NCBI RefSeq assembly: GCF_002750975.1
Contig: NZ_PEJS01000001.1
Span: 62,001 to 126,000, forward strand
Source: Stenotrophomonas indicatrix
Lineage (GTDB): Bacteria > Pseudomonadota > Gammaproteobacteria > Xanthomonadales > Xanthomonadaceae
Direction: 5' to 3'
Length of the DNA stretch: 64,000 bases
A program made the translations under genes and the position numbers. The notes under the pieces are model-generated. The model ran no database searches and was not told the DNA's origin. It saw only the letters and a program-made list of their open reading frames with translations. Positions 34,499-61,463 of the stretch are shown one piece after another (the stretch's first letter is position 1; every line of letters starts with the position of its first letter).

Positions 34499-34502
34499 CT
34501 GG

Positions 34503-34578
34503 GTAGTGCCGGCCGCTGGCCGGCAACCTCATGACCTGCGGACGATGCCTGCAGTTGTCGGCCAGCGGCCGGCACTAG
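34503..34578. repeat. SMAG-type REP pair
   Basis: The forward copy is at 34503-34525, the slightly diverged reverse copy at 34556-34578. They lie between the convergent dmeR-like and MerC-like genes, and the second copy supplies the TAG stop of the MerC-like gene. Confidence 0.88.
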
Positions 34579-34952
34579 CTTCTGCGGTGCCGGTGCTGCG
34601 CGTTCCACAGGTGCGTGGCGGCCAGCAGCAGGCTGCCGGTGACCGTCAGCGGAGTCTCCCAGGCGTGCGAGGGCAGTGCCAGCGCCCCGGCCATCAACAG
34701 CGCCAAGCCCATGCCCGCGCTCAGCCATGCCAGCGCAGGCAGCGGCTGGCGGCGTTCGGCGCGCCACAGGGCAAAGCCGGTCATCGGCAGCGCGATGGCG
34801 ACGAAGACCAGGTGCACCCACTCCGCTTCGGCCCAGACGCCGAACAGCGGCAGCGCGGCCGCCAGCAGGGGCAGTGCCAGGCAATGCAGCAGGCACAGGC
34901 TGGACAGGGCGACGGCGCCGGCATCAAGCAGGGCGGCAGAGGGCGACTTCAT
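34575..34952 (-). CDS. MerC-domain membrane protein
   Basis: The 125-residue protein has four transmembrane helices in the MerC arrangement, starting [20 protein letters not shown] with the paired Cys residues of the first helix (CLLHC), then further helices around [27 protein letters not shown] and the C-terminal third. MerC proteins transport Hg(II), but chromosomal MerC-like proteins next to zinc genes are not proven mercury carriers. It diverges from the COG0523 GTPase gene over a Zur-like box, so zinc limitation is the likelier signal and zinc the likelier cargo. The TAG stop lies within a SMAG palindrome. Confidence 0.8.
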
Positions 34953-45359: not shown

Positions 45360-45461
45360 GGCGGGGTGGGTCCGGTTGCGGGGGTGTCCGCGGCATGGAT
45401 GCCGCGGCCAAGCCCCCAGGGATGGGTTTACGGCGTCCCCCGCAACCGGACCCACCCCGCC
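45360..45461 (+). repeat. Large hairpin element, copy A
   Basis: Perfect 25-bp inverted arms at 45360-45384 and 45437-45461 enclose a 52-nt conserved core that itself contains the small palindrome CCGCGGCATGGATGCCGCGG. The arms differ in sequence from those of copies B, C and D, but the core is nearly identical. An AATCTGTC block immediately precedes the element, as in copies C and D. Confidence 0.85.
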
Positions 45462-45480
45462 ATCCCACGGATAGCCCGCT

Positions 45481-45535
45481 GTTGCTGTTGCCGTTGCCAT
45501 TGCCGTTGCCATTGCCGTTGCCATTGCCGTTGCTG
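45481..45535. repeat. Hexamer/dodecamer microsatellite
   Basis: About four rounds of CCGTTGCCATTG and variants (TTGCCG/TTGCCA) lie between hairpin copy A and the lytic transglycosylase gene. It is outside coding sequence. Confidence 0.85.
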
Positions 45536-45624
45536 CGGCCGTTGCTTCTGCGGGTGCCGGGCGCCACCCGGCCGAACCCCCATTCACTCAGTGTTAGCGG
45601 CCGCAGCCGGATCATCCCGCCGCC

Positions 45625-46401
45625 ATGTCCCTCCGTCCCGCCCTCGTCGCGCTGTTGCTGCTGTCTGGCCTGTGGCCAGGGCTGGCCGCTGCGCGCACGG
45701 TCTACCGCTGCGTGCAGGGCAACACCGTCAGCCTGGCCACCGCACCGGAACCCGGCTCGCGCTGCACGCCGAAGGAGATCGAGGACAGCGCCGTGCAGAC
45801 CCCCAACCTGTGGGGCAACATGGGCGTGTTCAGTGGCGTGCTGTACGAGCGCGAGCAGGACGGCAAGCTTGTCTACTCCACCCGCAACCTGCCCGGCTCA
45901 AGGGTGTTCCTGAAGTTCACCGTAGCCACACCGCCGGGCGAACCGGCGCACGAAGGCCTGGGCAAGGTCGGCAAGCCCCAGCTGGCCCAGCACGCAAAAC
46001 AGTTCAAGGCGGCGGCCAAGGCCACCGGCGTGGACGATGCCTGGTTGCGGGCGATCGCCCACGCCGAAAGCAATTTCGACGCGCTGGCGGTGTCCAGCAA
46101 GGGCGCGCAGGGCGTGATGCAGCTCATGCCGGACACCGCGCTGGAATACGGCGTGCGCGACCCGTTCTCGCCGCAGCAGTCCATCGACGGCGGCGCCCGC
46201 TATATGCGCGCGCTGCTGCGTCGCTACAACGGCGACCGTCCGCTGGCAGCGGCGGCCTACAACGCCGGCATCGGTGCGGTGGCGCGCTACAAGGGCGTGC
46301 CACCGTATGCCGAAACCCTGGCCTACGTGGACAAGGTGATGGCCCTGTATACACGCTACCGCGAAGCGATGGGCATCCGTATCGAAGTGCCGGCGAAATG
46401 A
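45625..46401 (+). CDS. Lytic transglycosylase (SLT domain)
   Basis: The 258-residue protein has a signal peptide (cleavage after LAAA), a DUF4124-like N-terminal segment (RTVYRCVQGNTVSLATAPEPG) with two Cys residues, and a C-terminal SLT domain with the catalytic Glu in AHAESNFDA (about 148), SSKGAQGVMQLMP and AAAYNAG. It cuts the MurNAc-GlcNAc bond of peptidoglycan, giving anhydro ends, in the periplasm. Length and motifs are complete. No secretion or conjugation cluster adjoins, so a general cell-wall role is likely. Confidence 0.9.
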   Translation: MSLRPALVALLLLSGLWPGLAAARTVYRCVQGNTVSLATAPEPGSRCTPKEIEDSAVQTPNLWGNMGVFSGVLYEREQDGKLVYSTRNLPGSRVFLKFTVATPPGEPAHEGLGKVGKPQLAQHAKQFKAAAKATGVDDAWLRAIAHAESNFDALAVSSKGAQGVMQLMPDTALEYGVRDPFSPQQSIDGGARYMRALLRRYNGDRPLAAAAYNAGIGAVARYKGVPPYAETLAYVDKVMALYTRYREAMGIRIEVPAK

Positions 46402-46408
46402 CCGGCGA

Positions 46409-47932
46409 TCAGCGCGATGTGGAAATGCTGTAGAGAGGGTAGCGCTCAATCCGGCCGACGCGGTTGATCGCGGCACGCACATCGGCACGCTGTTTCAGTT
46501 CGCGCCAGCGTTCGTCGGCCACCCGCTCCGCCGGCAGCGAGGGATACACGCGCATGTCCTGCAGGCTGAGCAGTGCGTCGGTGCGATCCTCTGCGGATTC
46601 CAGTTGGCTTATCAGCGCGGCTGCGGCGGCCTCCATGTCGCCTTCTTCAATCAGCAGCTCCATATGGATCTGGGGTGCGTCCTTGCGGTGGCTGACGATT
46701 TCCGCGCGCGCGGCCGCCGCTGCCGCCGGATCGTTGTTCTCGCGCGCATGCACGAAGGTCAGGTAGGCGCGCGCCGCCAGCCCGAAGGGCGACAGCCCGT
46801 CCATGCCGGCAAGCAGGGTGTCGCTCTCGCGTTCGTGGCCAGTGGCAGACAGCATGAAGGCCAGGTTCATGCGGTGCTCGGCCGCGTCCGGGCCAAGAGC
46901 ACCGACCGCATCGGTCAGTCGTGCGGCCGCCACCGAGTCGTCGATGCGATCCAGCCGGCGCAGTGCCAGCGTGCGGTAGTCCAGCAGCCACGCCAGCCAG
47001 GTTGCCTCCTCACCCGCAGGACGCTGGCCGGCACTGACCATCCGCGCAATGTCATCGGTGAACTGCACGATCTGCTCGTTCTCGCCCACCATCAGCTGGA
47101 TGAAGCCGAACGCAGCCAGCTTGGCATTCAAGCGGCGATCGAGCAGGCCAGACACGCGCAGGTCATCCAGCTTGCGCTGTGCCACCTGCTGCGGATCGAA
47201 CCGCGGATCGCGGCGATCGACGTAGCGGTCGAAGCGCTTGTCGCTGCGCAATGCGATCACCTCCAACGGTGTATCGATGCGGGCAATCGTGGCAGCTGCC
47301 TCTGCGCTGCGGCCGTGCTCGACCTGCAATGTCGCCAGCACCAGCCAGAGGCCGGTGGGTTCAACGCCATCCCCCGTCCACTGGTTGTCGAACAGGCTCT
47401 TCAGCAGGGCCATGCGTTGAGCCGGCTGCGCACGCAGCGTGTACTGCAGGTAGCTGACGGTCTGCGTATCAACCTGCACGGGGGCATCTGCATGGGTGGC
47501 CGCTTGCAGCAGGTGAAGGGTTGCGGCGGCGGTGTTGTCCTCGGCCAGTTCCACCGATACCAGGGTGGCCAGCGTGGCCGGGTCGTTCGGCAGCGCGGTC
47601 AGTGCCTGCTGCAGGTAGCGGCGGGCAACGCCGGGGGCATCCTGCATCAACGCGGTGGCACCGGCGATCTGCGCGTTGCGCCCACGCACGGCGGGCTCGA
47701 GACGGGCGAACAACGGATCGTCCATCAGCCGTTCGAACGCGATCATGGCACCCAGCATGTTGCCGCTGCCGGCCATCATCAACGCCGACTCCCACCGTTG
47801 CTGGTAGGCGGAAAAGGGGGTATCCGCGATCTCCTGCGCTGGCGCCTCGGGATGGGGCTCGACGGCGTGTGCAGATGCTGCCGCCAGCACGGTGAGCAGC
47901 AGCGCGGCGAGAGGCAGGGTAGGTCGGGACAT
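46409..47932 (-). CDS. Exported TPR-like helical protein of unknown function
   Basis: The 507-residue product has a signal peptide (cleavage after AHA) and then about 480 residues of helical hairpins with TPR-like spacing (for example GNMLGAMIAFERLMDDP, GVARRYLQQALTALPNDPAT). No enzyme motif is visible. Periplasmic TPR proteins usually scaffold envelope complexes. The start at 47932 has AAGGAT nine bases upstream; an in-frame ATG at 47944 is too close to it. It converges with the lytic transglycosylase, 7 bp apart. Two 17-bp direct repeats lie upstream. Confidence 0.7.
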   Translation of the reverse strand: MSRPTLPLAALLLTVLAAASAHAVEPHPEAPAQEIADTPFSAYQQRWESALMMAGSGNMLGAMIAFERLMDDPLFARLEPAVRGRNAQIAGATALMQDAPGVARRYLQQALTALPNDPATLATLVSVELAEDNTAAATLHLLQAATHADAPVQVDTQTVSYLQYTLRAQPAQRMALLKSLFDNQWTGDGVEPTGLWLVLATLQVEHGRSAEAAATIARIDTPLEVIALRSDKRFDRYVDRRDPRFDPQQVAQRKLDDLRVSGLLDRRLNAKLAAFGFIQLMVGENEQIVQFTDDIARMVSAGQRPAGEEATWLAWLLDYRTLALRRLDRIDDSVAAARLTDAVGALGPDAAEHRMNLAFMLSATGHERESDTLLAGMDGLSPFGLAARAYLTFVHARENNDPAAAAAARAEIVSHRKDAPQIHMELLIEEGDMEAAAAALISQLESAEDRTDALLSLQDMRVYPSLPAERVADERWRELKQRADVRAAINRVGRIERYPLYSISTSR

Positions 47933-47951
47933 GACGGCATCCATCCTTGGA

Positions 47952-47989
47952 AAGTGCGTTGATTTGAATGCGAAGTGCGTTGATTTGAA
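47952..47989. repeat. Paired 17-bp direct repeats upstream of the TPR gene
   Basis: AAGTGCGTTGATTTGAA occurs exactly at 47952-47968 and 47973-47989 (21-bp period, two helical turns), just upstream of the TPR-like gene. The spacing would suit a dimeric DNA-binding protein. Confidence 0.6.
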
Positions 47990-48106
47990 CCCGCAAAGGG
48001 CTGCCACCACAAGCACCCCCGCATTTGCAGCGGCGTGGCCTTGGCAGCCGGGAGTGCAGCGACTATCGTCTGACCCTCTTCACGGTCTGGCAGGCGAACA
48101 GGAACG

Positions 48107-50188
48107 ATGGCACGGCGGCATTGGATGGCGGCAGGCGTAGTGGTGGCAACAGCGGTGGCGCTGGCGGCAACCTGGTGGGAGTTCCCGGCATCGGGCCCGA
48201 CAGTAGCGAGCGGCCCGGCCGCCACGCCGCTGGGCTGGACCGCACAGATCGAGCTGCTGGCCGGCGACGGTCATCCGGGTAATCGCGATGGCGCCTCGGC
48301 GCAGGCACGCTTTGCCGACCCCTACGCGCTGCTGGCCAGTGCCGATGGCAGCGTCTACTTCACCGATGCCGGTGACAACAACCGTATTCGCCGCCGCCTG
48401 GCCGATGGCCGTATTGAAACGGTAGCGGGGCAGGGCGAGGGTCGTGTTGATGGGCCTGCCCTGCAGGCAAGTTTCAACACGCCTTCGGGTATTGCCGCCG
48501 ATGCGCAGGGCAACCTGTATGTGGCCGACACCGGCAATCATGCGATCCGGCGCGTCAGTACCGATGGACAGGTGACGACGCTGGCCGGTGGCCAGCAAGG
48601 CTTCGCCGATGGTCCTGCCGCGCAGGCGCGCTTCGATGGGCCGATGGGCATCGCCGTGGATGCGCAGGGACAGGTCTATGTGGCTGATACCTGGAATGAC
48701 CGCATCCGGGTGATCGGTACCGATGGCAACGTGCGTACGTTGGCCGGCGGCGACCGCCCGGGCTTCGCCGATGCGGTCGGCGCTGACGCTCGTTTCGATA
48801 CACCGGTGGCGCTGGCCTTCGATGCGCACGGCGCACTGCTGGTGGCCGATCTGTTCAACAACGCAGTGCGTCGCGTCGGCACCGATGGCATGGTCAGCAC
48901 CGTCGTTGGCCGCGGGGAGGTCATCAATGGCCCGCTGTCACTGGCCACCACGCATGACGGCGTGCTGTACGTGGGTGACCTGGATGGACGCATCGTGCAG
49001 GTGACCCCGCAGGGACATCAGCTGGCACTGCTGGGCAATGACCGCCTGCCACGCCTGGCGCGCCCCAGCGGTCTGGCGGTAGAGGCCGACGGCACCCTGC
49101 TGGTGGCCGATTCCGCGGCTTATCGCCTGCATCGCCTGCGCCCGTTGCCGGTGGGTGAACTGCCCGCACCGGCGCTGGTGGGCCCGGCCTCGGATGCGGC
49201 GCTGCCGGACAGTGGCGGACGCTGGCCACTGGCACCGCAGGATGGCTGGCACGAAGTGGTCGGCACACTCGGCGAGGTGCGCGGCACCTTCCAGGGTGAG
49301 AGCCGCCACCACCTGCACGGCGGCTTCGATGTGCGCGGCGATGTCGGCCAGACCGTACTGGCGATCGCCGAGGGCAAGATCAGCAGCCCGATTGCCGCCT
49401 GGAGCCTGGGCGGACAGGCCGAAGGCCTGGCCGTGGACCGGTTGAAGTACATCCACATGCGCGTCGGTCGTACGCCACGCGGCGAACCGTTCGACGCGCG
49501 CTGGCAGCCGCTGTACGCCGAAGACGGCACGCTGGAGCGGATCCGCGTGCGCCGTGGTACACGCATCCACGTCGGCGACCGCCTGGGCAGCATCAACAAC
49601 CAGGCGCACGTGCACCTGGCCGTGGGCAATGGCGGTTTCGAGACTAATGCGGTGGCGCTGGGGTTCAAGGGCTATGCCGACCACTTCGCGCCGCGCATCA
49701 CCGATGTGGCGCTGCTGGACGATAACGACCAGCCACTGGCCGCCGGCAGCGATGGCGTGGTGATGCTGGCCCGGCAGGGACGCGGCGTGCAGATCGTGGT
49801 GGAGGCCTGGGACCAGGTGGACAACAACCTGCCGCGTCGTCGGCTGGGGCCGTACCAGGTGGGCTACCAGATCCTCGATGCCGCCGGGCAGCCACTGCAG
49901 GGCTACGAGCAGCCGCGCTGGAACATCGTCTTCAACCGCATGCCACCGCAGAAGCAGGCGGTGAAAGTGGCTTACGCACCCGACAGCGGCATCACCGTGC
50001 ATGGTAGCGCGGTCACCCGCTTCCGTTATCTGGTGACCAACACCGTGCGCGATGGGCTGATGGAAACCGGGCGCTGGCAGCCGGCGGCGTTGCCGCCGGG
50101 CGAGTACATCGTGCGTGCCAGTGCGCGCGACTACAGCGGCAACGAAGGCGTGGGCCCGCGCGACATCAGGGTACGGCTGCTGCCATAG
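48107..50188 (+). CDS. NHL-propeller/M23 peptidase fusion protein
   Basis: The 693-residue exported protein has an N-terminal hydrophobic segment (about 7-25), then five or six NHL repeats (about 45-350: each NLYVADTGNHAIRRV-like), then an M23 (LytM) domain with HGGFD (His404, Asp408) and HVH (His501, His503), which are the zinc-site motifs HxGxD and HxH. A C-terminal beta domain (about 530-690) follows. M23 enzymes cut peptidoglycan cross-bridges. Joining a propeller to an M23 domain is unusual. Its last 23 bp overlap the convergent DGPF gene. Confidence 0.8.
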   Translation: MARRHWMAAGVVVATAVALAATWWEFPASGPTVASGPAATPLGWTAQIELLAGDGHPGNRDGASAQARFADPYALLASADGSVYFTDAGDNNRIRRRLADGRIETVAGQGEGRVDGPALQASFNTPSGIAADAQGNLYVADTGNHAIRRVSTDGQVTTLAGGQQGFADGPAAQARFDGPMGIAVDAQGQVYVADTWNDRIRVIGTDGNVRTLAGGDRPGFADAVGADARFDTPVALAFDAHGALLVADLFNNAVRRVGTDGMVSTVVGRGEVINGPLSLATTHDGVLYVGDLDGRIVQVTPQGHQLALLGNDRLPRLARPSGLAVEADGTLLVADSAAYRLHRLRPLPVGELPAPALVGPASDAALPDSGGRWPLAPQDGWHEVVGTLGEVRGTFQGESRHHLHGGFDVRGDVGQTVLAIAEGKISSPIAAWSLGGQAEGLAVDRLKYIHMRVGRTPRGEPFDARWQPLYAEDGTLERIRVRRGTRIHVGDRLGSINNQAHVHLAVGNGGFETNAVALGFKGYADHFAPRITDVALLDDNDQPLAAGSDGVVMLARQGRGVQIVVEAWDQVDNNLPRRRLGPYQVGYQILDAAGQPLQGYEQPRWNIVFNRMPPQKQAVKVAYAPDSGITVHGSAVTRFRYLVTNTVRDGLMETGRWQPAALPPGEYIVRASARDYSGNEGVGPRDIRVRLLP

Positions 50189-50573
50189 CCGCGGCCGGGG
50201 CGCCGCAGCGTTCGCGCTCGGCGTCCATGTCTTCCAGCGGCCGCACCTCGATGCTGCCGAAGCGGGCCCACGGGAAGCCCTGGGCGATACGCATGGCCTC
50301 ATCGCGGTCACGGGCGACGATCAGGTTGAAGCCGGCCAGCAGTTCGCGGGTTTCGGCGAAGGGGCCATCGAGTACCCGGCTGTGGCCATCGCGCACGCGC
50401 AGGGTCTGCGCCGATTCGATCGGCTGCAGTTTCTGCGCGGCCAGCAACGTGCCTTCGGCCTGCAGTTTGTCGGCATGGGCGAGGCAGTCGCGCATCAACG
50501 TATTGAAGTCGTCGATGGGCAGTGTGCGCAGCAGTGACGGGTCAATGTAGATCAGAAGCAGGTACTGCTGCAT
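50166..50573 (-). CDS. YCII/DGPF-domain protein
   Basis: The 135-residue protein has a ferredoxin-like YCII fold with the LDGPFAETRELLAGF signature (about 70-84). DGPF proteins cluster with ECF42 sigma factors, as here, but their reaction is unknown. The 3' end overlaps the convergent propeller/M23 gene by 23 bp. ATG 50573 is chosen as the first Met of the YCII fold (MQQYLLLIYID). Its upstream region holds the head-to-head hairpin copies B and C shared with the divergent DGPF gene at 51293. Confidence 0.85.
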   Translation of the reverse strand: MQQYLLLIYIDPSLLRTLPIDDFNTLMRDCLAHADKLQAEGTLLAAQKLQPIESAQTLRVRDGHSRVLDGPFAETRELLAGFNLIVARDRDEAMRIAQGFPWARFGSIEVRPLEDMDAERERCGAPAAAMAAAVP

Positions 50574-50735
50574 GGCGGAGTCCTGGCGGCGGCGGGGGAC
50601 CATGATCGCGCAGGTTTGCGCGGGGGCATGCTGCACTGCGAAAGGCAGAGCGGGAAGCGCGCCTTCGGCGGGGATCGGCGAACGGCGGGGCCCCTCCGTG
50701 GTGGAAGCACAAGCACAAGCATGAGCCATGGGATT

Positions 50736-50839
50736 GGCCGGGTGGGTAGGCGGGTCGGGGGACGCCGTGAACCCATCCCTGGGGGCTTGGCCGCGGCATC
50801 CATGCCGCGGACACCCCCGCCCCGCCTACCCACCCGGCC
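50736..50839 (-). repeat. Large hairpin element, copy B
   Basis: Inverted 25-bp arms at 50736-50760 and 50815-50839 with one mismatch enclose the same core as copy A, read on the minus strand. The arm sequence differs from those of A, C and D. The preceding flank (CGCAGGAAACTGTCC on the minus strand) matches the family. Confidence 0.85.
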
Positions 50840-51003
50840 CTGGACAGTTTCCTGCGGCGTCCACCACGGAAAATCACAAACAAAGGCAAAAAGCGGGTCG
50901 CTTCGCTCGCAAAGCCGAGGCCGCCAGCCAACCGCCTTTGCTGTTGCTTCTGCCTTTTTTTCCTGATCTTCCCGTGGTGGATCGGAGGCAGGAATCTGTC
51001 CGT

Positions 51004-51107
51004 GGCCGGGCGGGTGGGTTGCGCAGGGGCGTAAGCGCCATGGATGGCGCGCCCGAGCCTACAGGGACGTATTCACGGCGTCCCCTGCGCAGCCCACCCG
51101 CCCGGCC
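51004..51107 (+). repeat. Large hairpin element, copy C
   Basis: Inverted 26-bp arms at 51004-51029 and 51082-51107 have one mismatch, which would be a G-U pair in RNA. The core is a diverged version of that in A and B (GCGCCATGGATGGCGC palindrome, then TTCACGGCGT). The 5' flank is GGCAGGAATCTGTCC. Confidence 0.85.
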
Positions 51108-51292
51108 AACCCACAGAGATGCAGCTCTTCACGACAAACCACCCCCACCACGGAGGGGCCCCGCCGTTCGCCGATCCCCGCCGAAGGCGCGCTCTCCGCA
51201 GGAAAAATAATTCGCACGACGGTGTCGATCCTCGCGCCCCTGGTTCGTTGTAAGAGGGAAGGGCACGCACCCGCAGCCCAGCGGAGACCGCA

Positions 51293-51709
51293 ATGAAAGT
51301 GATGGTGATCGTCAAAGCCAACGCCGATTCCGAAGCCGGGCGCATGCCCAGCGAACAGGAACTGGCCGCCATGGGCGCCTACAACGAACAACTGGTGGCC
51401 GCCGGCATCATGCTCGCCGGGGAAGGCCTGCATGCCACCCAGCGTGGCCGCCGCATTCATTTCGGCAGCGGCGCGCCGCAGGTCGAGACCGGCCCGTTCG
51501 GCCCGGCTGGCGAGCAGATCGCTGGGTTCTGGCTGTGGGAGGTGCGCTCGCTGGACGAGGCCACCGAATGGGCCAGCCGTGCGCCCTTCGGCGCGGGCGG
51601 TGCCCTCGAACTGCGCCCGCTGATCTCGGCCGAAGACTTCGGTGAAGCCTTCACCCCTGAATTACAGCAGCAGGAACAGCGTCTGCGTGAGCAGCTCGAC
51701 CGTGCCTGA
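51293..51709 (+). CDS. YCII/DGPF-domain protein
   Basis: The 138-residue protein starts MKVMVIVKANADSE and carries the DGPF-equivalent motif VETGPFGPAGEQIAGF. It is the first gene of a same-strand run (51293-54308) of DGPF, two VOC, DUF1428 and ECF sigma genes with short gaps. Such YCII-VOC-DUF1428 sets accompany ECF42 sigma factors in many bacteria; they may handle reactive or toxic small molecules. ATG 51293 follows GGAGACC at 51284. Confidence 0.88.
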   Translation: MKVMVIVKANADSEAGRMPSEQELAAMGAYNEQLVAAGIMLAGEGLHATQRGRRIHFGSGAPQVETGPFGPAGEQIAGFWLWEVRSLDEATEWASRAPFGAGGALELRPLISAEDFGEAFTPELQQQEQRLREQLDRA

Positions 51710-51748
51710 GCACGGCCGCGCATTCATCCCATCCTACGGAGCATTCCC

Positions 51749-52171
51749 ATGAAACTGATTCCCTTCCTCGGCTTCAGCGGCCAGGCCCACGACGCAATGG
51801 CGTTCTACGCCAAGGCGCTTGGCGGCCAGGTCACGTCGGAGATGAAGTACCGCGACATGCCGCCGTCCGACGGCTCGCCGGGCTGCAATGAGATGCCGGC
51901 CGACACCCTCGACCATGTGGCCCACAGCCAGCTGGAGATCGGCGCGGCGATCCTGATGGCAGCCGATGGTCCCGGCGGCGGCGAGGGCGGTTCGACCACC
52001 ATCAACGTCGACGTGGACAGCATCGAAGAAGCCGAGCGCGTTTTCGCGGCGCTGGCCGAGGGTGGCCAGGTGCAGATGCCGATCGCCGAAACCTTCTGGG
52101 CCCACCGCTGGGGCATGTTGACCGACCGCTACGGCAAGCCGTGGATGGTCAACTGCATGAAGCAGCCCTGA
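51749..52171 (+). CDS. VOC-superfamily protein (PhnB/DUF1338-like)
   Basis: The 140-residue protein has the two beta-alpha-beta-beta-beta modules of the VOC fold in the PhnB-like version: LIPFLGFSGQAHDAMAFYAK, ALGGQV, then STTINVDVDSIEEAERVF and WGMLTDRYGKPWMVN. Metal or ligand residues cannot be assigned with confidence. The 39-bp gap after the DGPF gene and a GGAG site support an operon. Confidence 0.85.
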   Translation: MKLIPFLGFSGQAHDAMAFYAKALGGQVTSEMKYRDMPPSDGSPGCNEMPADTLDHVAHSQLEIGAAILMAADGPGGGEGGSTTINVDVDSIEEAERVFAALAEGGQVQMPIAETFWAHRWGMLTDRYGKPWMVNCMKQP

Positions 52172-52208
52172 TTTTCCTTTTCTCCATCCATCGCAGGGAA
52201 CCGCACCG

Positions 52209-52619
52209 ATGAGTACACCGCAACCGCAGATGATCTTCGTCAACCTGCCCGTGCAGGATCTGGAAAAAGCCAAGGCGTTCTTCGCCGCGTTGGGCTACAG
52301 CTTCAACCCGGCCTTCACCGACGAGAACGCCGCCTGCATGGTGGTCAGCGAGAGCATCTTCGTGATGCTGCTGGTCAAGCCGTTCTTCCAGCAGTTCACC
52401 ACCAAGTGCATCGCCGATGCGCATGCGCAGACCGAGGTGATCACCTGCCTGTCGGCTGACAGCCGCAAGGCGGTGGACGCCATGGTGGACAAGGCGCTGG
52501 CCGCCGGTGCCAGCGAACCGCAGCCGGCGCGCGACTACGGCTTCATGTACCAGCGCGGCTTCCAGGACCTGGATGGGCATCTCTGGGAAATCGCACACAT
52601 GGACGGCGAGCCGGGCTGA
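52209..52619 (+). CDS. VOC-family (glyoxalase-like) protein
   Basis: The 136-residue protein opens MIFVNLPVQDLEKAKAFFAA and closes with GFQDLDGHLWEIAHMD, a usual VOC end with the second-module Glu as metal ligand. It is probably cytosolic and a dimer. Its substrate is unknown; position in the DGPF/ECF42 cluster suggests detoxification or antibiotic-like ligand binding. 37 bp separate it from the previous gene. Confidence 0.85.
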   Translation: MSTPQPQMIFVNLPVQDLEKAKAFFAALGYSFNPAFTDENAACMVVSESIFVMLLVKPFFQQFTTKCIADAHAQTEVITCLSADSRKAVDAMVDKALAAGASEPQPARDYGFMYQRGFQDLDGHLWEIAHMDGEPG

Positions 52620-52643
52620 GCGGCCGCCGCAGGGAGAATCCCG

Positions 52644-53000
52644 ATGGCTTACGTGGATGCTTACGTATTGCCGTGCCCGCAGGACAAGGTGGCGGCCTAT
52701 CGCCGCCTTGCCCGCCAGGCCGGCGCAGTGTGGAAGGACCATGGCGCGCTGCAGTACATGGAATGCGTGGCCGATGACGTGCAACCCGGCAAATCGACCT
52801 CATTCCCGCAGGCGGTGAAGCTCAAGCCGGGCGAAACGGTGATCGTGGCCTTCGTGGTGTTCCGCACGCGTGCCGCGCGCGACCGCATCAACAAGAAGGT
52901 GATGGCCGACCCGCGGCTGGCGCATATCGGCCCGAAGGACATGCCGTTCGATACCAAGCGCATGTTCTGGGGCGGCTTCAAGCCGATCGTGGAAGCGTGA
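52644..53000 (+). CDS. DUF1428 protein
   Basis: The 118-residue protein opens MAYVDAYVLPCPQDKVAAYR and contains GALQYMECVADDV, VIVAFVVFRTRAARDRIN and MPFDTKRMFWGGF, the pattern of DUF1428, a dimeric ferredoxin-like fold. It is 24 bp after the VOC gene with a GGGAG site. The function of the family is not known; association with DGPF and ECF42 genes is common. Confidence 0.9.
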   Translation: MAYVDAYVLPCPQDKVAAYRRLARQAGAVWKDHGALQYMECVADDVQPGKSTSFPQAVKLKPGETVIVAFVVFRTRAARDRINKKVMADPRLAHIGPKDMPFDTKRMFWGGFKPIVEA

Positions 53001-53045
53001 ACGCCGGCGCTTGTGCGGGCCGGGCCCGCATGCTGTGATCGGCGC

Positions 53046-54308
53046 ATGCACGAGCCCGCCCTGAGCCAGCGCCTGGACACCCTCTGGCGGATGGAATCGC
53101 CAGTGTTGATCGCGCGCCTGGCGCGCCTGCTCGGCGGCGATGTCGGTCGTGCCGAAGAGCTGGCCCAGGACACCTGGCTGGCCGCGCTGGAGCGTTGGCC
53201 GGTGCAGGGCATCCCGGACAATCCTGGAGCCTGGCTGATGACCACCGCGCGCAACCGTGCCATCGATGTGCTGCGCCAGCACCGTCGGGTGGCGCAGCAG
53301 CATGCGCAATGGGGAGAGGAACTGCATCCGGCCGCATTGCCCTCGCCGGACGACAGCCAGGCGCTGGAAGACGACATCGGCGATGACCTGCTGCGGCTGA
53401 TGTTCGTGGCCTGCCATCCAGTCCTGCCTGCCGACGCGCGGGTAGCGCTGAGCCTGCGCCTGCTGGGCGGGCTGACCACGACCGAGATCGCCCGCGCGTT
53501 CCTGCAGCCGGAGCCGACCATCGCCCAGCGCATCGTGCGTGCCAAGCGCACGTTGGCGCAGAAGCAGATCCCCTACGAAGTGCCGCGTGCCGATGCATTG
53601 CCGGAGCGACTGGCCTCGGTGCTGGAGGCGATCTACCTGGTGTTCAACGAAGGCTATGCAGCCAGTGCAGGCGACGACTGGATGCGACCGGCGCTGTGCG
53701 CCGAGGCGCTGCGGCTGGCGCGCATCCTCGCCCATCGCATGCCGGTGCCGCCGGTACTGGGTCTGTTGGCGCTGATGGAACTGCAGGCTTCGCGCGCGGC
53801 GGCACGGGTGGATGCGCAGGGTGCGCCGATCCTGCTGGACCAGCAGAACCGGGCACGCTGGGATTGGCTGCAGATCGAACGCGGCCAGCAGGCACTGGCG
53901 CGTGCGGTGTCGGCGGGTGGCGGCGATGACCCCTATGTGCTGCAGGCGCGGATCGCTTTCTGCCATGCCAGTGCGCGGCGTGCCGAAGACACCGACTGGG
54001 CACGCATCGCTGCGCTGTATGCGCAGCTGCTGCAGGTAATGCCATCGCCGGTGGTGGCATTGAACCGGGTGGTGGCGGTGTCGCGCAGCGAAGGCGCGTT
54101 CGCGGCATGGGCACTGTTGCAGCCGCTGCTGGATGAGCCACGCCTGCAGGGCTACGCACCGCTGATGGTGGTGCGGGGCGAACTGCTGCAGCAGCTGGGG
54201 CGGGAGCAGGACGCGCGTGACGCATTCGCCTCGGCAGCGGCGTTGAGCCAGAACCAGGCAGAGCGGACCCTGCTGCGGCAACGGGCCGGCCTGCCGCAGG
54301 AAAATTGA
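53046..54308 (+). CDS. ECF42-type sigma factor with C-terminal TPR extension
   Basis: The 420-residue protein has sigma region 2 (RAEELAQDTWLAALERWP, then PGAWLMTTARNRAIDVLR), region 4 (LTTTEIARAFLQPEPTIAQR) and a C-terminal extension of about 230 residues with helical TPR-like repeats, for example YAASAGDDWM and ALNRVVAVS. ECF42 sigma factors lack an anti-sigma partner; the extension controls activity, and DGPF genes are their usual targets and neighbours, as here. The start at 53046 excludes an 11-codon extension. No conserved promoter was identified upstream of 51293. Confidence 0.9.
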   Translation: MHEPALSQRLDTLWRMESPVLIARLARLLGGDVGRAEELAQDTWLAALERWPVQGIPDNPGAWLMTTARNRAIDVLRQHRRVAQQHAQWGEELHPAALPSPDDSQALEDDIGDDLLRLMFVACHPVLPADARVALSLRLLGGLTTTEIARAFLQPEPTIAQRIVRAKRTLAQKQIPYEVPRADALPERLASVLEAIYLVFNEGYAASAGDDWMRPALCAEALRLARILAHRMPVPPVLGLLALMELQASRAAARVDAQGAPILLDQQNRARWDWLQIERGQQALARAVSAGGGDDPYVLQARIAFCHASARRAEDTDWARIAALYAQLLQVMPSPVVALNRVVAVSRSEGAFAAWALLQPLLDEPRLQGYAPLMVVRGELLQQLGREQDARDAFASAAALSQNQAERTLLRQRAGLPQEN

Positions 54309-54415
54309 AGCCGACAAGGTCAGCACTTGTCGGTTTGCCCCGGAGCGGCTATGTTTCGCGCCCAGCGGGCGTGTTCGCGCCTGTCATTCGTGTGTCGTGA
54401 CCGAGGAGCGGTTGG

Positions 54416-55612
54416 ATGTTTTCAAGGACGAAGAGCGCACCGCGCGCTTTTGCGCGCCTGCTTGCCTATGCCCTGTGCCTGGCCGTATGGCCGTTGGCCA
54501 GCCAGGCCGCAGACAAATCGCAGCAGGCCTACTGGGCCGGCTTTGCCTATACCGCTGACGCCGCCGCCGTACAGGCGACCACCCCGCATGCGCATGCCGT
54601 GCTGGAAAAACGTGGCCTGATTCCGCTCAACCAGACCCTGGCACAGGCGCTCAAGCGCCGCGCACCGGCCAACCTGGAACTGATCGACCAGCCGGTGGCG
54701 ATGCTCGACGGCACCACCAGCGCCGTGGTGCTGGCCGCTGCGCTGGACCGCGAGCTGGTATCGGTCGAACCGATCGGCGACCAGTACAAGGTGCTGGTGG
54801 AAGTGGCACTGCAGGCGCTGTTCTTCGATTTCCGCGAGCGCCAGGTGATCGCCTCCTATCCGCTTACCCTGCAGCGCATCGACGTGCAGGAGTACCGCCC
54901 GGACAGCGACGATATCGATGCGATCGTCGCCGATCTGCTGTACGGCGGTGCCGATACCAGCCTGTCGCAGGTGCTGGCCACCACCCTGGCCCAGGCCAAG
55001 CTGCCTGAAGCGGCCACGCGTCGCCTGCAGGTGGGTGCGGTGACCTTGTCCGACGCCACGCTGGCCAAGCTGCCCGACCCGAAGTGGGCCGGGCCGCTGC
55101 GCGCCACGCTGGCCCATGAGCTGTCCAAGACGCTGTCGTCCAATACCGGTGTCGGCCTGCTGCCGCCGGCCTCGGGCCAGGCGATCGGCGGTGCCATGGC
55201 CGCGCGCTTTGCCGACGGCAAGGTCTACCAGCTGAAGATTCCCGAGGCCGACTACGTCATCAGCCTGCAGGTGGATGCGCTGAAGAACGGCGTCATCAGT
55301 GAAACGCCGGCGATGAAGACGATGCTGTTCGGCGCGTTCTTCACCGCCAAGGTCACCGAGCCGTTCTCCGGCAAGGTGTACTTCGAACAACCACTGCGCA
55401 AGGGCGCCACCAAGGTGGTGCCGGTCACGCAGTGGCAGGTCGACCAGTGGTCGGCCAGCTACGAAACCCTGCTGGCCGGCTTCGATGCCTTCGCCGGCGC
55501 CGCCGCCAAGCGCGCCGATTCGCGCGCCTGGCTGGACGAGCAGAAGCCCGGCGGACGCCCGCTGCAGCAACAGACCCAAGCCCTCCAGGAGTTGATCAAA
55601 TCATGTCGTTGA
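54416..55612 (+). CDS. Exported protein, first gene of a CsgG-like operon
   Basis: The 398-residue product has a signal peptide (cleavage after SQA) and a long soluble domain without recognised motif, perhaps periplasmic. The strand content is high in the C-terminal half (VISLQVDALKNG, TAKVTEPFSGKVYFE). The gene overlaps the next by 10 nt (55603) and is followed at short distance by two further exported proteins and the CsgG-like lipoprotein, so all four probably act together at the outer membrane. Confidence 0.7.
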   Translation: MFSRTKSAPRAFARLLAYALCLAVWPLASQAADKSQQAYWAGFAYTADAAAVQATTPHAHAVLEKRGLIPLNQTLAQALKRRAPANLELIDQPVAMLDGTTSAVVLAAALDRELVSVEPIGDQYKVLVEVALQALFFDFRERQVIASYPLTLQRIDVQEYRPDSDDIDAIVADLLYGGADTSLSQVLATTLAQAKLPEAATRRLQVGAVTLSDATLAKLPDPKWAGPLRATLAHELSKTLSSNTGVGLLPPASGQAIGGAMAARFADGKVYQLKIPEADYVISLQVDALKNGVISETPAMKTMLFGAFFTAKVTEPFSGKVYFEQPLRKGATKVVPVTQWQVDQWSASYETLLAGFDAFAGAAAKRADSRAWLDEQKPGGRPLQQQTQALQELIKSCR

Positions 55613-56703
55613 TGCGTACCATCCTGCTCATCCTCATCGCCCTGGCGGTGGCCTCGCCGGTCGCCGCGCAGACCGCCAGCTCGCGCGGTACCGGTTCGGC
55701 CAGCTACAGCCTGCGCCTGAGTGCCGATACCCGTGCGCAGGCCCTGAACAAGGCCAAGGCCAATGCACTGGAGGCGTACATCGCCGAATCCGGTGCGGCC
55801 AAGCTGCGCCTGTTCGAATCGCGTCGCGCCGAGTTCCTCGGTGAAATCGACCGCTACGTGCTCAGCGCCGTGCAGCTGTCGGACAACGAAGACAAGAAGG
55901 CCAAGACCTACAGCGTCACCGTCCGCGCCGAAATCAACACCACCCTGCTGCAGACCAAGCTGGACGCCGGTTCGGCCGTGGCCGGTGCCACCGCCGCACA
56001 GCGTTCGCTGCTGACCTTCCTGTTCATGGCGCGCTCGCAGGACACCGTGCAGTCGTTCCAGGACAAGGAATACCGCCGCGTCGACGCCAGCAGCAGCTAC
56101 AGCGAGAACACCCGTGAGGGCGACAGCTTCCGCGGCAACTCGGTCAGCACCAACGGCAGCATCAACCAGAACGGCTCGGTGTCGGTCACCAGCGGCGGCA
56201 GCACCACCGCCCGCAGCGACAACATCAGCTGGAAGGTGGCCAACGCCGCCGAAGTCAACACGGCCATGACCGGTGCCTTCAGCGCCGCCGGCTACGAAGT
56301 GGTTGAAGCCGAATACGTGGAAGGCGAGTCGCGCGGCCTGCTCAGCATCGAGCGCATCCGCAAGGACTTCAGCACCGGCAACGATCTCTCCGCGGCCACC
56401 CTGCGCGATACCGCCAACGGCATCCGTGCGGCGAACATCCCGTACATCGCTGTCGGTACCCTCGACGTCGGCATGCGCGACCGTGATCCGGCCAGCGGCA
56501 ACACCCGCGTGTTCGTCACTGTCACCGGCAAGGTGCTGGACGTGACCGGTCGCTTCCCGCGCACCGTGTCGTCGGTGGGCCCGGTGCAGTTCTCCGGTAC
56601 CGGCCCGAACGAAACGGTCGCCCGCACCAATGCACTGCAGCTGGCTGCCGAAAAGGCCGCCCAGCAGATGATCAACGAACTGAACGTCAAGGCGGTCCGC
56701 TGA
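55603..56703 (+). CDS. Exported protein of the CsgG-like operon
   Basis: The 366-residue product has a signal peptide (cleavage after VAAQ) and a domain beginning SYSLRLSADTRAQALNKAKA that resembles the LPP20/flagellar-assembly T-type lead-in often paired with CsgG-like proteins. A Ser/Gly/Asn-rich low-complexity segment (about 175-205) follows, then a domain with VVEAEYVEGES and VTGKVLDVTGRFP. No catalytic motif. It starts 10 nt inside the preceding gene, indicating coupling. Confidence 0.7.
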   Translation: MSLMRTILLILIALAVASPVAAQTASSRGTGSASYSLRLSADTRAQALNKAKANALEAYIAESGAAKLRLFESRRAEFLGEIDRYVLSAVQLSDNEDKKAKTYSVTVRAEINTTLLQTKLDAGSAVAGATAAQRSLLTFLFMARSQDTVQSFQDKEYRRVDASSSYSENTREGDSFRGNSVSTNGSINQNGSVSVTSGGSTTARSDNISWKVANAAEVNTAMTGAFSAAGYEVVEAEYVEGESRGLLSIERIRKDFSTGNDLSAATLRDTANGIRAANIPYIAVGTLDVGMRDRDPASGNTRVFVTVTGKVLDVTGRFPRTVSSVGPVQFSGTGPNETVARTNALQLAAEKAAQQMINELNVKAVR

Positions 56704-56837
56704 CGTTACCGCTGCGATCGCCGGGCATGGCCCGGCGCTACCGGCTCTGGTGGGTGCCGAGCGTGCTCGGCACCCACCCGCTGCTATCCCCGATCCCGCG
56801 CGCCGCATTGCGGCCGTCTCTCCCAAAGGACTCTTCC

Positions 56838-57512
56838 ATGATCCGTAATACCGCTCTCGTCGTGGCCATCGCGGCCGCCACCCTGTCGATGCCGGCCCAC
56901 GCCCAGTTCGGCAAGCTGAAGGACCTGGCCGGCGGCGCCACCGGCAGCTCCAGCAGCAGCGCCAGCGCTGCCGCCCCGGACGAAGCCGCGCAGGAAGCGC
57001 TGGTCCGTCGTTTCGTCAGCTCGCAGTCGCACTCGCTGCAGGCACAGACCTCCTTCGCCCGTGCCTTCGGCCTGGCCGAGCAGGTGCAGCTGCTGGAAGC
57101 CGAGCGCCAGGCGCTGTCGTCTGGTTCGGTGAACGTCGATGCGATGAAGAAGTCGGTGTCGGTCAGCGAAGCCGCCCAGGCCGCCATCGACGAGCGCCAG
57201 GCCGCACAGCCGGAACTGAACGCTGAATCCAAGCAGCACTACGCCGAAGGCCTGGTCTCGCTGCTGGCCTCGGCTGCCGAAGCACAGAAGCTGAGCGGCG
57301 AAGCCAGCGGCTTTGCGGCCGGCATGAAGAACCTGGGCGCCACCCAGATGGCCACCGTTGGCCGCAAGCTGGCCGCCGGTGCCTGGGTTGCCAAGGAATC
57401 GCCGGGCTTCATCAAGGGCCTGTACGGCTCGACCAAGTCGGCTGTGACCTTCGCCAAGAAGAGCAAGGTGAAGGTGCCGTCCAACGCCGATTCGATGCTG
57501 GATTCGCTCTGA
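56838..57512 (+). CDS. Exported helical protein of the CsgG-like operon
   Basis: The 224-residue product has a signal peptide (after AHAQ), a Gly/Ser-rich linker (GGATGSSSSSASAA) and a mostly alpha-helical body with many Ala, Gln and Glu residues. The 134-bp gap before it holds a GGGTGCCGAGC...GCTCGGCACCC palindrome (56751-56775), another intergenic hairpin. The next gene starts 17 bp downstream. Function is unknown beyond its place in the operon. Confidence 0.65.
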   Translation: MIRNTALVVAIAAATLSMPAHAQFGKLKDLAGGATGSSSSSASAAAPDEAAQEALVRRFVSSQSHSLQAQTSFARAFGLAEQVQLLEAERQALSSGSVNVDAMKKSVSVSEAAQAAIDERQAAQPELNAESKQHYAEGLVSLLASAAEAQKLSGEASGFAAGMKNLGATQMATVGRKLAAGAWVAKESPGFIKGLYGSTKSAVTFAKKSKVKVPSNADSMLDSL

Positions 57513-57528
57513 TACGAGGCAGCTCCGC

Positions 57529-59175
57529 ATGCGTACGACGACTCGATTGATCGGCCTGGGCCTGGCAGCGGCCCTGCTGGCAGCCTGCGGCAAGCAGGAT
57601 GCACCGGCAGAAACCGCTCCGGCCAAGGACAAGGCTGCCAGTGCGCTGGCCAGCAATGCGCCGGTGCAGGAAGCGCCCCTGCGTGGCACGCCGGATTTCG
57701 GCGGCACCACCCAGGTCGCGCGTGAAGCCGACGGTATCGGCAGCACCCGGGAACTGGCGGTGCTGGCGGCATTGCAGTCGGCCGTGGCCCAGGTCAACGG
57801 CGTACGCGTGGCCAGCCAGATGCAGAGCCTGCGCGCAGGCCTGCATGTGGACGTGGACGGTGAACACGTCGGCGATATCCGCGCCGACGCGTTCTCCCAG
57901 CAGATGATTGCCGGCTCGCAGGGCGCGGTGCTGGGCTATGAAATCCTCTCGCAGGATGAAGTGAGCCAGCTCGACGAAGAAACCATCGCCCGCGTGCGCG
58001 CCAGCGACGAAGGCTGGAGCTTCAAGGGGTCGGCCTCGGCCAGCGCTTCCGGCGAAGCCTCCGCCAAGGGCGGCTCGGCGTCGGCCAGCGTCAAGGAAAA
58101 CTACGAAGAACAGGTCAAGGTAGACGCCAAGCGCGGTGCCAGCTCCTTCGATTCGGATGTCACCCGGCGCAGCATGCGCAGCTACTGGAAGGTGCGTGTC
58201 CGCGCGCAGATTGCCCAGTACCGCGCACCGGACGAAGAAGGCAAGCCGAAGATCGTGGTGGCTCTGCCGCGCACCAAGTCGGGCAGCTATGCCGTTGGCG
58301 ATGGCCGGGTGAACGCCGACGAGGTCGCCCAGGCGATCCGCGCGCGGCTGTCCGACACGCTTACCCAGACCCAGCGCTTCATCGTGCTGGACCGCGAGTT
58401 CGGCGACGAACTGCAGGCCGAGATCGACCACATCAACAGTGGCAACGTGCGCCTGCAGGACACCGCGCGCGTTGGCCAGCAGCTGGCGACCGACCTGATC
58501 CTGATTCCGACCATCGAGCGGTTCGAGTACCCGCGCAGCGTGCGCAACCTGCGCATGTCCGATCGCCAGGTGACCTCGTATTCCGGTGGCGGCCGCATCA
58601 CCCTGCGCCTGGTCAACGCCACCACCGGCCAGGTGGTGATGTCCGACAGCTTCGACCATCAGTTGGCCTCGACCGGCCCCAGCACGCTGCCGCGCGTGGT
58701 CAATGGCCGCAGCATGGCCGCCTCGATGATGGACTCGCTGTCCGGGCAGATCGGCAGCACGATCGTCACCACGCTGTTCCCGGTGTCGGTGGTGTCCGTC
58801 GATGGCGACCAGGTGGTGCTGAGCCAGGGCGGTGACACCGTGCAGGTCGGCCAGCGCTGGCAGGCCGTGCGCCTGGGCGAAGAGCTGAAGGACCCGCAGA
58901 CCGGCCGTTCGCTCGGCCGCAGCGAGCATCCGTGCTGCACCATCCGCATCGACCGCGTTGCCGCGCAGACGTCCTACGGCACCCTGGAAGAGGGCGTCGA
59001 CGCGATGCGCGGTGGTTTCCGCCCCGGCCAGATCGAACTGCGCCAGAAGCTGGGCAGCAAGCCCAAGGCCGCCGCCGGCGCAACCGCATCGGCCGCCCCG
59101 GCCGCCGCAGCGCGCCCGGCCAGCAAGCCCAAGCCCAAGCCCGCCGCCGCCCCGGCCGAAGACCCGAACTGGTAA
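57529..59175 (+). CDS. CsgG-like outer-membrane lipoprotein
   Basis: The 548-residue protein has a signal peptide and lipobox (LLAAC, Cys20). A CsgG/HfaB-like domain lies in the middle (about 250-410), recognised from TQRFIVLDREFGDELQAEI, then LILIPTIERFEY and GGRITLRLVNATTGQVV. CsgG forms the pore that exports curli fibre subunits. Here no csgA/B genes occur, and the protein is about twice CsgG length, with an N-terminal repeat region and an Ala/Pro/Lys-rich C-terminal tail. It may form or organise a pore for an unknown surface product. Confidence 0.78.
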   Translation: MRTTTRLIGLGLAAALLAACGKQDAPAETAPAKDKAASALASNAPVQEAPLRGTPDFGGTTQVAREADGIGSTRELAVLAALQSAVAQVNGVRVASQMQSLRAGLHVDVDGEHVGDIRADAFSQQMIAGSQGAVLGYEILSQDEVSQLDEETIARVRASDEGWSFKGSASASASGEASAKGGSASASVKENYEEQVKVDAKRGASSFDSDVTRRSMRSYWKVRVRAQIAQYRAPDEEGKPKIVVALPRTKSGSYAVGDGRVNADEVAQAIRARLSDTLTQTQRFIVLDREFGDELQAEIDHINSGNVRLQDTARVGQQLATDLILIPTIERFEYPRSVRNLRMSDRQVTSYSGGGRITLRLVNATTGQVVMSDSFDHQLASTGPSTLPRVVNGRSMAASMMDSLSGQIGSTIVTTLFPVSVVSVDGDQVVLSQGGDTVQVGQRWQAVRLGEELKDPQTGRSLGRSEHPCCTIRIDRVAAQTSYGTLEEGVDAMRGGFRPGQIELRQKLGSKPKAAAGATASAAPAAAARPASKPKPKPAAAPAEDPNW

Positions 59176-59197
59176 GACACCTCGGTAATGCACAGAT

Positions 59198-59246
59198 GGG
59201 GTCAGAGCTCTTTCCCACCGGGAAAGGGATCTGACCCCTTCTTGTT
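59198..59246 (+). terminator. Terminator-like hairpin of the GGGGTCAGA family
   Basis: GGGGTCAGA at 59198-59206 pairs with TCTGACCCC at 59230-59238, with an inner CTTTCCC/GGGAAAG stem, then a CTTCTTGTT tract. It is 22 bp after the CsgG-like gene and probably ends that operon. Confidence 0.75.
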
Positions 59247-59248
59247 GC

Positions 59249-59268
59249 GTGTCGACCAAGGTCGATAC
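59249..59268. repeat. GTGTCGACC palindrome, second copy
   Basis: GTGTCGACC-AA-GGTCGATAC differs by one base from the palindrome at 45264-45283. Both are followed within 120 bp by a large hairpin element. Confidence 0.75.
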
Positions 59269-59321
59269 CTACCAACAGCATCACAGAACGCCGTTCCGAC
59301 AGATCGCAGAAATCTGTCCAA

Positions 59322-59425
59322 GGCGGGGAGGGTCTGGTTGCGGGGGTGTCCGCTGCATGGATGCCGCGGCCAAGCCCCCAAGGATGGGTTTACGGCCTCC
59401 CCCGCAGCCGGACGCTCAGCGCCAT
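59322..59425 (+). repeat. Large hairpin element, copy D (decayed)
   Basis: The left arm (59322-59346) and core match copy A closely. The right arm is damaged at several positions, so the stem is incomplete. The preceding flank again contains AATCTGTC. Confidence 0.75.
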
Positions 59426-61250: not shown

Positions 61251-61360
61251 TTGCCGGCCGCTGGCCGGCAATCGTGTGATGTCTGGTAGTGCCGGCCGCT
61301 GGCCGGCAACCCGGTGATGCTTCCGGAAGCGATGGGGAGCCGGCCAGCGGCCGGCACTAC
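61251..61360. repeat. Cluster of three SMAG elements
   Basis: A first degenerate copy (61251-61270, GTAG lost) precedes a forward copy at 61286-61308 and a reverse copy at 61338-61360. They lie between the M28 peptidase and the histidine kinase genes. Confidence 0.85.
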
Positions 61361-61463
61361 CAGAACCGGTTCCATCCACCCTTTCCCGGTCTTCGTCGCA
61401 CATCGCTTGTTTGCCCGAAGGGCCGCTCTATGCTCGGCTCACCCCTTCCACCAAGGCGCCGCC

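Follow-up and report, generated by a model that had tools for sequence, protein, structure and literature searches.

The window analysed here, a stretch of 64,000 nucleotides of Stenotrophomonas indicatrix (contig NZ_PEJS01000001.1, positions 62,001 to 126,000), contains four copies, A to D, of an element of about 104 nt in which arms of 25-26 bp close a three-way junction that carries two hairpins (Table 1). A sequence-only reading of the window had described these copies as a hairpin family with a conserved core and diverging arms, and a model search recovers all four where that reading had placed them, with 145.1 bits for A and the scores given in Table 1 for the rest; only the end of D lies slightly off, closer to 59423 than to the proposed 59425.

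Table 1. Positions of the four copies, their parts and the B-C module in the window
Feature	Positions	Strand	Basis
Copy A, 5' arm, 25 nt	45360..45384	+	25/25 pairs
Copy A, hairpin 1, loop C-AUGGAU-G	45388..45407	+	predicted fold
Copy A, hairpin 2, loop C-AGGGAU-G, UUUAC bulge	45412..45434	+	fold and covariation
Copy A, 3' arm	45437..45461	+	arm alignment
Left outer inverted repeat of B-C module	50657..50704	+	similar in orthologous loci
Copy B, whole element	50736..50839	-	25/26 pairs; 138.5 bits
Copy B, 3' arm	50736..50761	-	
Copy B, hairpin 2	50764..50786	-	
Copy B, hairpin 1	50791..50810	-	
Copy B, 5' arm	50814..50839	-	
B-C head-to-head spacer; includes the inner half of each outer stem (CCGTGGTGG/CCACCACGG)	50840..51003		
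Copy C, whole element	51004..51107	+	26/26 pairs, one G.U; 137.0 bits
Copy C, 5' arm	51004..51029	+	
Copy C, hairpin 1	51035..51050	+	
Copy C, hairpin 2	51057..51079	+	
Copy C, 3' arm	51082..51107	+	
Right outer inverted repeat of B-C module	51145..51192	-	similar in orthologous loci
Copy D, whole element, 3' arm decayed	59322..59423	+	22/25 pairs; 116.2 bits

Architecture and covariation

The nested palindrome noticed earlier, CATGGATG, is the hexaloop of hairpin 1 together with its closing pairs. Hairpin 2, which the sequence-only reading did not describe, follows the pattern GCC-YYC-AGGGAY-GRR-UUYAC-GGC, and its stem covaries as well (CCC/GGG, UCC/GGA, UAC/GUA). In the 26-column alignment of the arms, copy A is fully paired, as had been claimed for its 25-bp arms, and the right arm of D is indeed damaged; the single mismatch attributed to each of B and C is present in B, whereas the one in C is a G.U pair.

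The variation of the arm sequences among copies, with pairing retained and the core conserved, holds genome-wide and across genomes. Among 149 distinct rows from this genome, 97.3% of cells keep their pairing, where shuffles keep 76.2%; two-sided changes number 1163, compared to 348 in the shuffles, and a smaller alignment of 28 copies yields 203 two-sided cells against 54. The complementarity of the copies is far above that of shuffles and slides, and the arms are not copies of one another, 86 of 126 left arms being distinct. Perfect arms occur in 72 of 127 copies from the same genome. The predicted fold of A has z = -7.64, and that of its complement z = -9.60. Covariation in the arms, combined with the conserved core, supports the earlier view that the folded form matters.

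Copy number, genomic setting and distribution

The genome holds at least 160 copies, of which A to D are four. An exact search of it with the core pattern gives 27 matches, and the reversed pattern, used as a control, gives none. Close pairs are arranged head-to-head in 53 of 54 cases, with SMAG repetitive extragenic palindromes (REPs) in the pair spacers. By the gene calls made here, all 160 copies lie entirely outside genes. Short single copies lie in gaps between convergent genes in 20 of 49 cases, compared to 4 of 95 element-free gaps longer than 100 bp (p = 7e-8). Relative to codirectional genes, single copies show no orientation bias (11 vs 16), which makes a fixed role in mRNA unlikely; an mRNA 3'UTR element of fixed orientation was rejected on this ground. 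A scan of the B-C module for promoters of the sigma70 type gave 0 sites, with 0.0 expected by chance.

Of 274 gammaproteobacterial genomes, 47 contain model matches, and copies are present or absent depending on the species. The "empty" A sites of relatives hold other hairpins or repeats. Searches with the 58-nt core in phages and plasmids, and with a short core in E. coli genomes, gave no match.

Loops of the CsrA/RsmA type and related RNA families

Both loops have the form C-ANGGAN-G, which is the published hairpin site of CsrA/RsmA, presented in PMC7652899 as RUACARGGAUGU with an ANGGAN hexaloop. The SELEX hairpins covered in that source have mostly weak stems, so the stem of hairpin 1, which reaches 8 bp, counts against recognition by CsrA. 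Loop 1 contains GGA in 127 of 127 copies from this genome, in 23 of 25 copies from the class and in all 90 copies from named genomes, where the search pattern left loop 1 unfixed and 79 of the 90 are strictly CANGGANG (all 119 stretches of the named set were used, 77 of which yielded the parsed copies and 42 none); all four bases occur at its second position. Loop 2 contains GGA in 142 of 144 short rows from this genome, with U, G, A or C at N. The 15 long insertion variants fall into a hairpin-1 type (7 copies), with extra hairpins that bear CAGGA in their loops, and a hairpin-2 type (8 copies), in which loop 2 lacks GGA. Except for the latter, nearly all of these RNAs would display at least two GGA motifs in single-stranded hairpin loops, as do sRNAs that sequester CsrA/RsmA.

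As read by eye, the host genome encodes a CsrA with L4 and R44, and csrA is present in 43 of the 47 element-positive and 192 of the 227 element-negative genomes (Fisher p = 0.26); in one element-positive genome, rated 98% complete, no csrA was seen. The RsmZ and RsmY models gave nothing above the cut-off in this genome.

The closest relative among known RNAs is TwoAYGGAY (RF01731), with which the element shares a long, poorly conserved outer stem that encloses two hairpins with ANGGAN loops, here of the CANGGANG type in both hairpins. TwoAYGGAY is likewise multi-copy, in several genomes, and carries the same Rfam clan tag as RsmY (CL00106). The present family is unlike it in the short hairpin 2 with a UUYAC bulge, the roughly 160 copies, the head-to-head pairs and the multi-hairpin insertion variants. 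The TwoAYGGAY model aligns over its full length to one member of the family (35.3 bits), and our model R1 scores 3 of 12 loci fetched as RF01731 matches, at 69.6, 69.5 and 58 bits; these three also pass the RF01731 gathering threshold of 43 bits, so that the two models match mutually. None of the window copies reaches that threshold, and RF01731 has no match in this genome at E 0.001 under stricter filters. Judged by these models, the element family grades into TwoAYGGAY, an RNA predicted to bind CsrA (PMC4333381).

The whole model of the Yersinia sRNA Ysr224 (RF02770) aligns to A, B and C at 28.9, 35.9 and 26.8 bits; the best scores, 35.9 bits in the window and 38.0 in other genomes, stay below its gathering score of 70. 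In Rfam, Ysr224 is placed on the opposite strand, where the loops read UCC rather than GGA. It is described as transcribed and multi-copy in Yersinia ruckeri.

GGA motifs that are proposed or shown to bind CsrA/RsmA are also found in CsrB, CsrC, RsmX/Y/Z and the Xanthomonas RsmU. Antagonists of the CsrB/CsrC/RsmX/Y/Z type are encoded by one to few RNA genes per genome, and the known CsrA/RsmA-sequestering sRNAs have their own, Gac-dependent promoters. RsmU is a 3'UTR-derived RNA which, according to its authors, was found only in Xanthomonas (PMC7694677).

Nature of the folded form and its likely role

The sequence-only reading left the choice between an RNA and a cruciform. The non-Watson-Crick positions of the arms, read on one strand, bear on this choice: the G.U to A.C ratio is 41:4 in this genome, 9:2 in the class copies and 70:16 in the named-genome copies, that is, 79:18 for the last two sets joined and 120:22 for all three. 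In a control of 79 distinct GTAG REP hairpins, 36 of them perfect, the ratio is 14:9, a small sample that does not differ from 1:1; it does differ from this genome (p = 0.007) and from the joined class and named sets (p = 0.05). Such an excess of G.U over A.C on one strand favours a single-strand fold, and a cruciform read alike on both strands was rejected because of it. Together with the CANGGANG loops, it favours a single-stranded RNA fold read by a CsrA-type protein; the folded form could possibly be single-stranded DNA instead.

A rather unlikely alternative is a REP- or MITE-like mobile hairpin, in which a transposase recognises the folded single strand, covariation preserves mobility and the loops are protein contacts. 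The SMAG and GTAG REPs of Stenotrophomonas are described as dispersed intergenic palindromes, often in inverted dimers (PMC3733652, PMC2613905), and the element resembles them in all these respects, including the head-to-head dimers and the SMAG REPs in its spacers; its high copy number, avoidance of genes and patchy presence among species fit as well. However, these REPs are palindromes of 20-40 bp with a GTAG tag, and no GTAG/CGTC tag is present at the arm ends of the window copies. None of the four Y1 transposase genes of this genome has an element within 1.5 kb on either side: GTAG palindromes lie alongside them instead, and the one match in their flanks, 17.9 bits at a single locus, is far below element scores; RAYT/REP transposition as the defining feature was therefore rejected. 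A transposase gene between paired elements was rejected too: the open reading frames inside two wide pairs look like housekeeping genes, apparently AroA and Eda. The absence of the 58-nt core from the phages and plasmids searched also argues against mobile DNA, as does the N of the two ANGGAN loops, which is free to vary as in the CsrA site.

A transcription terminator or a stabiliser of mRNA 3' ends, for which any strong hairpin suffices, appears improbable. The enrichment between convergent genes fits such a role, as does the finding that several relatives have a different hairpin at the A site, but this role would not conserve the loop sequences or the bulge, nor does it agree with the unbiased orientation relative to codirectional genes. 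An intrinsic terminator was rejected: by sight, the stems of the four window copies are not followed by a U-run, and the four terminator-like matches of the B-C module all lie elsewhere than in the element. Least credible is the absence of selection, with template-switch (quasipalindrome) correction maintaining complementarity. The high perfection of the arms fits it, but a DNA-level process should produce G.U and A.C equally, against the 120:22 observed, and the covariation extends to both hairpins, whose loops stay fixed.

In our assessment, the copies probably represent a CsrA/RsmA-binding, TwoAYGGAY-like RNA with long arms and a very high copy number. On the strand reading CAUGGAUG...CAGGGAYG, each copy would encode a structured RNA module. 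The long stem, free to drift in sequence as long as it remains paired, would hold the three-way junction, and the junction would set the two C-ANGGAN-G hexaloop hairpins side by side, in a geometry that would suit one CsrA/RsmA homodimer. The family would most likely titrate CsrA/RsmA or be regulated by it. We infer, in this scheme, transcription of the copies in this genome, their binding by CsrA, a sponge effect and the mode of spread. More tentatively, the family might be a self-spreading CsrA/RsmA bait RNA of Stenotrophomonas and many other Gammaproteobacteria, acting as a sponge or a local landing site and possibly standing in for RsmY/RsmZ.

If the copies do bind CsrA/RsmA, about 160 mostly two-site modules would alter how many binding sites for this protein the cell has to offer, the group would gain a candidate RsmA antagonist, and repeats that resemble structural DNA would prove to be RNA. 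The family also connects two Rfam entries, TwoAYGGAY and Ysr224, and one may ask if the strand assigned to the latter is the wrong one.

Fold of the element and covariation of its arms

The positions of the four family members in the window (copies A to D; see the table) were read correctly from the sequence alone. The overall architecture of the element is a three-way junction closed by a long stem, the 25-26 bp arms, in which a second hairpin (GCC-YYC-AGGGAY-GRR-UUYAC-GGC) accompanies the nested CATGGATG hairpin. The sequence-only reading had described perfect arms in A, one mismatch each in B and C, and a damaged right arm in D; the descriptions of A, B and D stand, and the mismatch of C is a G.U pair, so that its arms pair throughout.

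Coordinates of the elements and other features in the window (R1, covariance model of the element, trained on 28 copies with A-D among them)
Feature	Position	Strand	Details
Copy A	45360-45461	+	R1 145.1 bits; arms 25/25 paired
Copy B	50736-50839	-	R1 138.5 bits; arms 25/26 paired
Copy C	51004-51107	+	R1 137.0 bits; arms 26/26 paired
Copy D	59322-59423	+	R1 116.2 bits; 22/25 arm columns paired
GTTGCT/GTTGCC-like tandem run	45475-45540
C4 antisense RNA (RF01695)	14276-14362	-	Rfam match, 75.4 bits; typical of P1/P7- and P4-like elements
Inverted SMAG (GTAGTGCCGGCCGCTGGCCGGCA) dimers	111-219, 2787-2892, 4414-4517, 34489-34594, 61265-61375		~105-nt hairpins
GGGGTCAG...CTGACCCC hairpin	59198-59239		also in several spacers, e.g. 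L096, L183

The proposal that the arms differ between copies yet stay paired is upheld genome-wide and across genomes, far above shuffles. When 28 copies are aligned with MAFFT, 97.6% of the cells are paired (77.2% when shuffled), with two-sided changes at 31 of the 40 pairs and 203 two-sided cells compared to 54 in shuffles. A model-fitted alignment of 149 distinct rows, which is biased towards the structure, yields 97.3% paired cells vs 76.2% and 1163 two-sided cells vs 348, and the pairing signal is lost when the partner is slid by 1-3 columns. Hairpin 2 shows the swaps CCC/GGG, UCC/GGA and UAC/GUA. Left arms are distinct in 86 of 126 cases in this genome, and among 75 single-copy loci of other genomes, arm identity is 34% (28% expected from composition) and 3' core identity 77%. 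In other Gammaproteobacteria (L260, L269/L267 and further class loci), the arms extend to some 30 perfect pairs or beyond, and copies show no likeness to one another.

Copies, sites and carrier genomes

Exact matches to the core pattern number 27 genome-wide vs none for a reversed-pattern control, and the covariance-model search returns at least 150. We count at least 160 copies in 100/101 sites, 145 of them short and 15 lengthened by an insertion of ~72-80 nt; opposite-strand matches overlapping a better sense match and matches below 45 bits, such as one in L121 (30.2 bits), are left out, and the true number may exceed 160.

None of the 160 overlaps a gene under the simple gene calls made in this analysis. 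At two-element sites (gap <500 bp), the order is minus-then-plus with facing 5' ends in 53 of 54 cases and plus-then-minus in 0 of 54, whatever the gene orientation; in the class set of Gammaproteobacteria plus 80 of the 119 named stretches, six of the seven close pairs parsed are minus-plus, one of the six in Stenotrophomonas. Short single copies (n=49) lie in 20 convergent, 27 codirectional (11 sense, 16 antisense) and 2 divergent gaps, compared to 4, 51 and 40, respectively, for element-free gaps >100 bp (n=95). Outer stems with 9 or more exact pairs are present in 19 of 127 copies vs 5 expected, a few of them as simple-repeat matches. Tandem GTTGCT/GTTGCC-like runs lie 3' of the 3' arms of many elements.

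The B-C site is occupied by both elements in seven species, S. indicatrix included; the arms vary between several of these and mostly still pair, with non-matching arms in one right-hand copy (G008). Five other species of the genus lack the module, the site measuring only 160-215 nt. The outer inverted repeats of the module are 48 bp long. Between the B and C slots (window 50736-51107; L188, L189, L192), arm types look swapped in two species, as if the module had been inverted. At the A site, relatives carry a hairpin of the GGGGTCAG...CTGACCCC kind, a family that fits the motif GGGGWSAS given for repeats associated with TIRYTs (PMC3733652).

At E 0.001, R1 has matches in 32 of the 41 genomes searched in the genus, in 47 of 274 genomes (42 of 221 genera) of the class and in 19 of 299 genomes of a phylum draw, whose listing does not give the share from other classes, all 19 being this genome or of the same genus or class; unrelated long hairpins (e.g., SMAG dimers) reach ~25-35 bits with R1, so the weakest positive genomes may be without the element. 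The best E exceeds 1e-9 in 1/32, 4/47 and 4/19 positives, respectively. Named carriers among the matches listed include Marinobacter, Microbulbifer, Halopseudomonas, Luteimonas, Rheinheimera and Stenotrophomonas.

The strand predicted to fold

RNA pairing tolerates G.U and not A.C; on double-stranded DNA, each is the mirror image of the other. In a stem alignment scoring both equally, the ratio G.U:A.C is 41:4 (127 own copies; p 9e-9), 9:2 (25 class copies; p 0.07) and 70:16 (90 named copies; p 3e-9), p-values that overstate independence, given the kinship among own copies and the origin of some named copies in a single genome. Parsing required GGA in the second hairpin, 5 bp or more in the first and a stem scoring 12 or higher; of the 160 own copies, 33 gave no parse, and likewise 42 of the 119 named stretches, a set to which Stenotrophomonas itself contributes 3. 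GTAG REPs (short palindromic repeats) at the same 100 loci, a small control, give 14:9 in 79 distinct hairpins (p 0.40) and differ from own copies (p 0.007) as well as from the class and named copies combined (p 0.05). The G.U excess supports folding of the strand reading CAUGGAUG; a single-stranded DNA fold would fit it as well. Together with the covariation, it bears out the suggestion that the folded form matters, and on one strand.

Loops, relatives and the predicted reader

Hairpin 1 carries GGA in 127/127 own, 23/25 class and 90/90 parsed named copies, 79 of the latter strictly CANGGANG; the scan that yielded the named set had hairpin 2 fixed but left hairpin 1 free, so that this conservation is unforced. 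Hairpin 2 carries GGA in 142 of 144 short rows of own copies in the model alignment, with U, G, A or C as the second loop base and, in nearly all, U or C as the sixth. A review (PMC7652899) gives the CsrA SELEX consensus RUACARGGAUGU, six-base loops with AC/GU closure and the RsmE ANGGAN hexaloop, the site type to which the C-ANGGAN-G loops of the element belong. CsrA is encoded by this genome, with L4 and R44, residues marked in a figure legend there, both present.

In 7 of the 15 long copies, the insertion in hairpin 1 forms two added hairpins with loops containing CAGGA; in the other 8, it lies in hairpin 2, where GGA is lost, and this class counts against a strict two-site rule. Multi-hairpin loop insertions of both types occur in several species: hairpin 1 loops hold ones of ~70-100 nt at L148, L153, L139, L095, L166, L097, L108 and the B/C orthologues L191 and L194, and hairpin 2 loops hold a different insertion at L092, L212 and L218. 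The 5' flank contains GGA in 111 and TCC in 28 of 127 own copies, an excess absent from other genomes (24 vs 18 of 83).

Within the window, the element has no gathering-level Rfam match. Ysr224 (RF02770) matches A, B and C below threshold on the opposite strand; TwoAYGGAY (RF01731) aligns over its full model to one family member at 35.3 bits (cut-off 43). The window copies score too low to belong to RF01731 as curated. Strong R1 matches lie at 3 of 12 loci taken as TwoAYGGAY matches, and TwoAYGGAY shares a clan tag with RsmY. The RMfam paper already proposes CsrA binding of TwoAYGGAY (PMC4333381), and Ysr224 of Y. ruckeri is described as multi-copy and transcribed (PMC12112432). The accessible open-licence literature yielded no description of the family in Stenotrophomonas; PMC3733652 mentions two families of TIR repeats in S. 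maltophilia K279a, one of which is self-complementary and occurs in clusters, and either of the two may be the element. None of the four Y1 transposase genes found in this genome carries the element.

From the loops, CsrA/RsmA is predicted as the most likely reader, and we consider it fairly probable that the element works like a TwoAYGGAY/CsrA-binding RNA. The gene csrA was found in 43 of 47 genomes with the element and in 192 of 227 without it (p 0.26; counts made by eye), which neither supports nor refutes this reading. In its net effect, the element may act as a sponge or as a local landing site for CsrA, or may be a by-product of the spread of a repeat.
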